Positions 1,067 through 40,530 of a DNA stretch of 40,660 bases are shown here, one piece after another. This stretch comes from Methylacidiphilum caldifontis (GTDB lineage Bacteria; Verrucomicrobiota; Verrucomicrobiia; Methylacidiphilales; CAMAQI01). Both the position numbers and the translations under genes were made by a program. The notes under the pieces are model-generated. The model was not told the DNA's origin. It worked only from the letters and a program-made list of their open reading frames with translations, and did not search any database. The DNA is taken from the NCBI GenBank assembly GCA_945877805.1, contig CAMCSM010000017.1, positions 1 through 40,660 on the forward strand. Reading direction: 5' to 3'. How positions within the stretch are numbered: the stretch's first letter is position 1; every line of letters begins with the position of its first letter.

Positions 1067-1462
1067 GGAGTTAACCGCCAAGAGTGAGGCATCCTGCCGA
1101 CGCCAAGGCTAACACCTTCGTCCCGCACTGAGGGACTATGGCGTTCTCGATGGCGGACAATTGCAGAAAAAGGCAAAGTTTTTAAACCGCTGATTAACAC
1201 TGATCTTCGCTGATTGAATGCTTTTAAAAACGAGGAAGATTCGTCTGGCGGCCAGAACGAATCCAAACCCATGAGATACATCACTCTCTAAAACGAGTTT
1301 TAAGAGATGATTTATCTCTTGGGTTGAATTCCGATCGAGATCGGAATTTGTACTGTTTTGGGGCTCCCCATGAGTGAGGATAAGTGAAGATAAGTGGTTA
1401 AAAACTGAATTTTAAACTCTGCGACCCTCTGTGTCCTCTGTGGTGAAAATTGCCTTTAAGGT
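1067..1462. repeat. Intergenic block of leader/phrase repeats (several units, both orientations)
   Basis: AAAGGCAAAGTTTTTAAACC+GCTGATTAACACTGATCTTCGCTGATT (plus); CTTAAAGGCAATTTTCACCAC+AGAGGACACAGAGGGTCGCAGAG (minus); CAGTTTTTAACC+ACTTATCTTCACTTATCCTCACT (minus). Confidence 0.6.
1327..1348. repeat. Perfect dyad AATTCCGATC-GA-GATCGGAATT
   Basis: 10-bp arms, 2-nt spacer, read directly. Confidence 0.9.
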
Positions 1463-37611: not shown

Positions 37612-37758
37612 TCAAGACAATTCAAAGGCATTTTGAACCACCGATGGACACGGATTAACGCTGATTGCTGAGACTTTCGCACCTTCGGCAAGTGTTGGCG
37701 CTATCGAAACAAGGATGGTGGCAAGGAAACCGATCACGATCTTGACCGTATTTATCAT
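37612..37758 (-). pseudogene. Signal-peptide-bearing 48-aa ORF fused to repeat sequence (MINTVKIVIGFLATILVSIAPTLAEGAKVSAISVNPCPSVVQNAFELS); remnant or tiny exported protein
   Basis: Read by hand; typical signal peptide, but the C-terminal half is the leader/phrase repeat. Confidence 0.4.
37619..37667 (+). repeat. Leader/phrase repeat unit CAAAGGCATTTTGAACC + ACCGATGGACACGGATTAACGCTGATT
   Basis: Same leader as units near 1.17, 1.46, 39.3 and 40.2 kb. Confidence 0.6.
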
Positions 37759-39281: not shown

Positions 39282-39376
39282 AGAGGTTTAACCGCTAAGG
39301 GGCGCCAAATACGCCAAGGAAAGGCAGATTTAACAGGGATGGATAGGATTCACAGGATGTTTTAAAGACAATTTTC
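39282..39376 (+). repeat. Tandem leader/phrase repeat units
   Basis: GGTTTAACC+GCTAAGGGGCGCCAAATACGCCAAGG; GGAAAGGCAGATTTAAC+AGGGATGGATAGGATTCACAGGATG; TTTAAAGACAATTTTC. Confidence 0.6.
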
Positions 39377-39453: not shown

Positions 39454-39530
39454 AATAGGGAAATCAGGAAAAAAGGAATTTAAAACCAAAAATTCGGAGT
39501 TCTTTTTCCTATTTTCCAGCTTTCCCTATT
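39454..39530. repeat. 77-bp inverted-repeat element, 25-bp imperfect arms
   Basis: AATAGGGAAATCAGGAAAAAAGGAA versus reverse complement of TTCCTATTTTCCAGCTTTCCCTATT, 22/25 identical by hand. Confidence 0.75.
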
Positions 39531-39582
39531 AAAACGGTATTTTCTCTCTTTCTATCCCGTAGCGCTCCTCGCGAAGCGACTC

Positions 39583-40140: not shown

Positions 40141-40271
40141 ACATTTTCACACAAAGCCGCAAAGTTGCCCAAGGCTCCTCCCGAAATACAAATTATTTTT
40201 TTTGATTTTCTCTTTTCCAAATTCCTACGGGGAGAAACTTGGGAAGCTTTGCGGCTTCGCGTGAAAATTGT
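40141..40271. repeat. 131-bp inverted-repeat (MITE-like) element built from leader/phrase repeats
   Basis: TTTTCACACAAAGCCGCAAAGTTGCCCAAG versus reverse complement TTTTCACGCGAAGCCGCAAAGCTTCCCAAG, 26/30 identical by hand. Confidence 0.7.
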
Positions 40272-40350
40272 CTTTATCCCTTTTCTTCTATGAATGCCGA
40301 TGCGAAGTATTTCGTGACTGAGTTCAGAAAACAGAAATTTTGGTTTTTAT

Positions 40351-40530
40351 GTTTCGGGCTTTGCCGAAACTCGCAGTCCCTCACGAAAATCACAAAATGT
40401 TGACCGTTTTACGAAAGATTTCAAGAGTGAGGGACTAAGAGATAATTTTTAAGTATGAGTCATTGATAATGATATGTTTTTAGCTTTTCATGAATTAGCC
40501 CTGCTGAATATCCAGGGCTTTTTGTTTTGA
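40351..40530 (+). ncRNA. Candidate structured small RNA ending in an intrinsic terminator
   Basis: Hairpin GTTTCGGgctttgCCGAAAC; AGTCCCTCAC...GTGAGGGACT; terminator AGCCCTG-N9-CAGGGCT-TTTTGTTTT. Confidence 0.35.
40497..40528 (+). terminator. Intrinsic terminator
   Basis: AGCCCTGctgaatatcCAGGGCTTTTTGTTTT. Confidence 0.75.

Follow-up and report, generated by a model that had tools for sequence, protein, structure and literature searches.

The 23S rRNA intervening sequences encode four-helix-bundle proteins and place one small gene between complementary ends, inside a transcribed unit. MITEs and other non-autonomous transposons with terminal inverted repeats form small gene-less copies with inverted ends beside gene-bearing copies. 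In REPIN-RAYT systems, REP doublets occur with a REP-associated Y1 transposase (Bertels and Rainey 2011, PMC3116915). TAACTGA direct repeats were described in Beggiatoaceae, Cyanobacteria and Bacteroidetes (MacGregor 2015, PMC4679880).

The repeats considered here were found in a window of 40,660 nucleotides, the whole stretch of DNA that was analysed. They are likely to be the inverted terminal arms of tiny mobile elements (~0.45 kb) carrying a GxxExxY gene only, together with gene-less derivatives of these elements. With REPIN-RAYT they share a repeat-flanked gene, many gene-less inverted intergenic doublets, hairpin or clover-like folds, and several repeat flavours, each bound to its own gene copy (PMC3116915); convergent pairs, folds and matches of phrases to individual genes were all found. 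Unlike in REPIN-RAYT, the linked protein is GxxExxY, of the predicted PD-(D/E)XK fold, and the flanked genes do not encode a Y1 (HUH) transposase; the loci of two Y1 transposase genes in the genome are free of arms. The ends differ as well, being built of about three 8-10 bp periods with element-specific words and not of one REP palindrome. Like MITEs, the elements include gene-less copies with inverted ends; unlike MITEs, they have no known transposase and no consistent target-site duplication, and their ends are periodic and diverse. TAACTGA repeats resemble the phrase arms as short intergenic words near start codons that are scattered across phyla and missing at the equivalent sites of close relatives, but they are a single fixed heptamer in direct orientation, with no linked gene proposed (PMC4679880). 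In common with the rRNA intervening sequences, one small gene stands between complementary ends within a transcribed unit, whereas the protein family is another one and the elements lie between protein genes.

An earlier note on this DNA had described a modular repeat at 1067-1462, made of a constant leader and an interchangeable phrase of about three 10-bp periods. The phrases are present there, and that the repeats of the window are real is practically certain. The three-period pattern ACC(CRCNNAK NNN)x3 matches at 1186-1214 (+), 1370-1398 (-) and 37637-37665 (+), and a CACAGAG phrase lies at about 1412-1444 (-). Allowing at most two mismatches, ACCRCNNAKNNNCRCNNAKNNNCRCNNAK has three matches in the window against 0.09 expected, and none of 100 shuffles gave three. 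Genome-wide (2.94 Mb), where copy numbers come from pattern searches and the control is the pattern read backwards, ACC(CRCNNAK NNN)x3 has 134 matches and the control 11. Being short and periodic, the units resemble what chance or local slippage would produce as short tandem duplications in low-complexity intergenic DNA; the probability of this explanation is negligible, given the excess over the reversed control and given that slippage leaves the inverted pairing, the cross-phylum recurrence of words and the gene association unexplained.

The leader proved the weaker part of the description. With at most three mismatches, AAAGRCAATTTTCACC gives six window matches against 1.83 expected, and a genome search by leader returned just two weak matches; the long leader varies. 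The recurrent part is a short edge, TTTAACC, TTTCACC or TCTCAC, with three periods after it. One of the six window matches to the leader, at 39364, has no phrase downstream. The period depends on the class: it is about 10 bp, as proposed, in the CRCNNAT phrases of this genome, but mostly 8-9 bp in the CRCNNAG phrases at GxxExxY genes. The units are usually not free-standing; each is typically one of two inverted arms, and arms of this sort flank GxxExxY genes. Many of the units listed genome-wide converge in pairs, with a spacing of about 95 to 460 bp. The arms and the core of the window are as follows.

1072-1124, plus strand: U4, a weak degenerate remnant, AACCGCCAAG...GACGCCAAGG, read from the sequence.
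1168-1216, plus strand: U1, edge AAAAGGCAAAGTTTTTAA and phrase ACCGCTGATTAACACTGATCTTCGCTGATT in three 10-bp periods, the left arm of the composite (exact pattern match).
1227-1359, plus strand: cloverleaf-like palindromic core of 133 bp, an outer stem and three hairpins, between U1 and U2.
1370-1404, minus strand: U2, the right arm ACCACTTATCTTCACTTATCCTCACTCAT with edge TTTTTA (exact pattern match).
1412-1457, minus strand: U3, a second inverted arm, AAAGGCAATTTTCACCACAGAGGACACAGAGGGTCGCAGAG, with an exact leader at 1442-1457, read from the sequence.
37619-37665, plus strand: U5, edge GACAATTCAAAGGCATTTTGA and ACCACCGATGGACACGGATTAACGCTGAT, a member of the genome-wide family (exact pattern match).
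39286-39321, plus strand: U6, TTTAACCGCTAAGGGGCGCCAAATACGCCAAGG, a diverged CGCCAAG arm, from a periodic-triple scan and reading of the sequence.
39330-39359, plus strand: U7, the arm TTAACAGGGATGGATAGGATTCACAGGATG of the ACAGGAT class, matched to the arms of L034.
40144-40174, plus strand: U8, TTTTCACACAAAGCCGCAAAGTTGCCCAAGG, the left arm of a gene-less hairpin, pairing with U9.
40236-40275, minus strand: U9, AAAGACAATTTTCACGCGAAGCCGCAAAGCTTCCCAAG, the right arm of the same hairpin, pairing with U8.

These units lie between long ORFs and not in recognisable coding DNA. The view that neither CRISPR nor a known IS explains the modular phrase unit was upheld: the units are dispersed and inverted with periods of 8-10 bp, and they do not form an array of identical ~30 bp repeats with unique spacers. 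Comparison of positions 1000-1600 with Rfam gave sub-threshold chance matches only, the exact phrase strings retrieved only unrelated matches in full-text literature, and viral contigs scanned with one window protein yielded nothing. Two other places in the window carry related structures. A further inverted pair with another phrase (AATAGGGAAATCAGGAAAAAAGG ... TTTTTCCTATTTTCCAGCTTTCCCTATT) lies at 39454-39531, and at 40340-40440 the hairpins TTTCGGGCTTTGCCGAAA and AGTCCCTCAC...GTGAGGGACT adjoin U8/U9 and are perhaps related to the cloverleaf core, in diverged form.

The gene-less forms are of more than one kind. Positions 1165-1455 fold into one long hairpin (single-strand DNA fold, z=-7.0), and U8/U9 (40144-40275) represent the simple hairpin form (z=-5.1 in the same kind of fold). 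The consensus structure of the cloverleaf core from six copies has 56 pairs, 20 of them with compensatory changes, and a covariance model found about 15-17 copies in the genome. A phrase arm lies within 75 nt of the core on the left in 13 and on the right in 9 of the 14 well-defined copies, compared with 0.6% of random 75-mers from the same loci; by eye, the remaining right ends are mostly arms too, at irregular spacing. The arms on the two sides of a cloverleaf copy often differ in phrase class, which suggests that elements were inserted into or beside one another, or that recombination took place at the arms. Such copies are not predicted by a simple two-end transposon, and this counts against the reading of the units as ends of mobile elements. 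Adjacent arms and cloverleaf cores of this genome are connected by the near-palindromic linker TTTAAATGCATT and close variants (L008, L185, L186), which may be a true junction sequence. A further phrase type, GATAGCTGGATAGCTGAATAGC, was seen near arms and cloverleaf cores of the same genome (L190, L027, L029).

One convergent pair of arms in this genome (L023/L033) surrounds a 133-codon ORF for a GxxExxY protein (TIGR04256 E=1e-41, PF13366 E=2e-41). The family has five matches in the genome, and four of the five genes have inverted arms near their ends, each with its own phrase: CTGAT/CTAAT at L033, ACAGGAT at L034, CGCAGAG at L035 and CACAAAG at L037, the last being a partial family match with one stop. 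No arms were found beside L036. Several window units match these arms well above the 95th percentile of the background: U1 scores 19 against the L033 arms (background 8), U2 21 against an L033 arm (background 9), U7 21 against the arms of L034 (background 8), whose ACAGGAT class is rare in the genome, and U8 13 against the L037 arms (background 8). Neither U3 nor U4 strongly matches any arm of the GxxExxY genes in this genome, and for U4 no match is significant. The phrase of U3 belongs to the ACCACAGAG class, which brackets GxxExxY genes in other genomes (L118, L132, L200).

The arrangement extends to many phyla. GxxExxY loci were taken from named genomes (80 loci, 79 of them measured), and the groups sampled include Verrucomicrobia, Bacteroidetes, Desulfobacteraceae, Geobacter, Planctomycetes, Chloroflexi, Cyanobacteria, Acidobacteria and Lentisphaerae. 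The inverted-repeat score was the best ungapped inverted match between the upstream and downstream flank. Terminal inverted repeats by this measure (score of at least 14) are present at 78% of the 79 loci, against 3% of windows about 700-900 bp away at the same loci; in a second, independent sample, drawn by family profile alone within the phylum, the figures were 64% of 25 loci and 4% of controls. Periodic triples occur in 54/79 and 57/79 flanks against 4/70 and 5/70 controls, with the periods left free and the detection rule fixed after the flanks had been seen. A rule demanding a period near 10 bp passes over the majority of loci, since the period of many classes is 8 or 9 bp. Most elements have their own phrase at both ends, and the phrase varies between elements: arms are alike in 78% within one element and in 23% when paired from different loci. 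The impression in the earlier note that this phrase style recurs in intergenic DNA of unrelated bacteria was sound, the units bracketing GxxExxY genes in many phyla, and the phrase arms very probably belong with these genes. The start codon can come directly after the left arm (L132), and the purine-rich arm may also be a ribosome-binding region. Seven plasmid records carry GxxExxY, and none was found in phages. Variant arms ACCACCCGCTTCGCTGGAG... contain an extra palindromic insert, CCGCTTCGCTGG, within the arm (L136, L140, L144, L145).

Arm similarity rises with protein identity. Over 64 loci, the Mantel Spearman correlation was r=0.40 (permutation maximum 0.27, p=0.0005); matching arms were found in 5% of locus pairs at 35-45% protein identity, in 63% at 65-80% and in all pairs above 80%. 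This covariation, in which host relatedness was left in, supports recognition of the phrase by the protein, short of proof; common ancestry of whole elements and of hosts may explain part of it. The number of arms also follows the gene. GxxExxY proteins are widespread, with matches in 135 of the 241 genomes compared within the phylum, and the median number of AG-type phrase arms is 25 with the gene and 1 without it (Mann-Whitney p=6e-28, the genomes being non-independent); the reversed pattern gives medians of 2 and 0. Exceptions occur in both directions, since at least 10 arms are present in 6 of the 106 genomes that lack GxxExxY, and 18 of the 135 that have it show 0-2. Many phrase arms without a detected GxxExxY gene were seen in G071, G142, G115, G199 and G231, where the gene may have been lost or missed, or another gene may serve the arms.

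Genomes of this kind would suit the idea that another enzyme, of the host or of another element, moves the repeats and that GxxExxY is mere cargo of some copies, as would the mixed phrases at cloverleaf cores and the second gene family with the same layout described below. This idea appears quite unlikely, as phrase type tracks GxxExxY identity, the phrase classes in this genome match individual GxxExxY genes, and the local Y1 transposase genes have no arms nearby.

GxxExxY (TIGR04256/PF13366) is a protein of predicted PD-(D/E)XK fold. Residues G24, E27 and Y30, which form the GxxExxY motif, are invariant in 72 sequences, as are D67, E77 and K79 of the PD-(D/E)XK signature. The AlphaFold model has a pLDDT of 95.7 and a pTM of 0.89; its top PDB folds are SSO0001, a Cas4-family nuclease (probability 1.00, TMq 0.56, weak E=0.009), and lambda-type exonucleases. 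A sequence search of the PDB with GxxExxY gave no match. Assignment to the PD-(D/E)XK nuclease fold class is credible on the basis of the model, with no close relative solved, and the D...E-x-K catalytic signature together with this fold makes the protein a predicted nuclease. That it acts as a nuclease at the arms is somewhat favoured. Open-access literature mentions GxxExxY/PF13366 in passing, with nothing on function or repeats; most subscription journals are outside this coverage.

In a full element, a GxxExxY gene of ~125 codons stands between a left arm, made of a short T-rich edge and about three periods of 8-10 bp, and an inverted right arm that carries the same phrase. The gene-less forms are back-to-back arms that make a hairpin, two arms around a cloverleaf core, or single arms. 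GxxExxY would recognise its own phrase by repeated contacts along the three periods and would cut at the arms, starting the copying or moving of the element. Copies with related phrases, among them gene-less hairpins and cloverleaf copies, would be moved in trans, which would account for the many gene-less copies. GxxExxY genes apparently reside on elements whose two ends bear a readable recognition code, which makes the function of the protein directly testable. The finding also points to a means of predicting the protein that acts on a given repeat, many anonymous intergenic repeats gain a candidate owner, and GxxExxY could supply small nucleases with naturally diversified sequence preferences.

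Presence and absence at one junction were compared within one family, the gene names being read by eye from the flanking translations. Between gatA and gatB, G164 and G247 have a GxxExxY element with ACCACAGAG arms, G246 has a gene-less ACCACAGAG hairpin, G229 a gene-less hairpin with the very different phrase AATGGTTAAATGGCTAAAG, and G128, a congener of G164, has an unrelated ORF there without arms. Three other genera also have GxxExxY elements between gatA and gatB (L124, L127, L141), and elements occur at the trpE-trpG (L061, L070) and nuoF-nuoG (L103) junctions. No consistent target-site duplication was found, direct repeats adjoining the arms being at background level; an apparent duplication at trpE-trpG was rejected as a single element seen twice. 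Repeated GxxExxY elements or gene-less hairpins between gatA and gatB were observed in Verrucomicrobiota (L124, L127, L132, L141, L197-L206), and the junction is possibly an insertion hot spot in that group.

Mobility of the elements is likely. Periods of 8-10 bp in intergenic position would also fit fixed regulatory or chromosome-organising sites, bound by protein on one helix face and immobile, yet gain and loss at an orthologous junction, nesting, inverted pairing around a gene and the strong dependence on GxxExxY presence make this very improbable. The position of elements between co-directional genes (gatA-gatB, trpE-trpG, nuoF-nuoG) and the strong pairing of the arms may instead point to a role as RNA: a transcript stem at operon junctions, cut by RNase III or controlling stability or translation, with GxxExxY as passenger or RNA-processing partner, as in 23S rRNA intervening sequences, whose four-helix-bundle proteins come from genes that show the same layout. 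Such a role is unlikely, since a stem needs no periodic repeats, the two arms of a cloverleaf copy frequently have unlike phrases, and PD-(D/E)XK proteins are mostly DNA nucleases. The GxxExxY elements appear to form a hitherto undescribed family of tiny mobile elements, spread across many bacterial phyla.

The four-helix-bundle genes (TIGR02436) were picked as a comparison set. They have inverted periodic flanks, with a score of at least 14 in 13 of 17 cases against 12% of control windows; their arms have a 7-bp period, to which the TAACTGA repeats are closer in pitch, and words unlike those of GxxExxY arms. No TIGR02436 gene was found in the genome of the window. The periodic inverted layout may therefore be more general than GxxExxY. 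Since TIGR02436 genes have a like layout, association alone is no proof that GxxExxY is the enzyme, and since they share it without a nuclease, the ends may have another recogniser. The chances are about even for a wider proposal, namely that these are formerly unrecognised minimal mobile elements spread across phyla, with 'phrase-coded' ends: both would bear one word, specific to the element and occurring about three times with a pitch of 7-10 bp, for a small protein encoded by the element to read. At least two unrelated families, GxxExxY and the four-helix-bundle proteins, would have converged on this layout, and the gene-less offspring would account for an appreciable share of the intergenic repeats of bacteria that lack an explanation. 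In other genomes, inverted 7-bp tandem repeats were seen to bracket TIGR02436 genes at L217-L246, the word being specific to the element.
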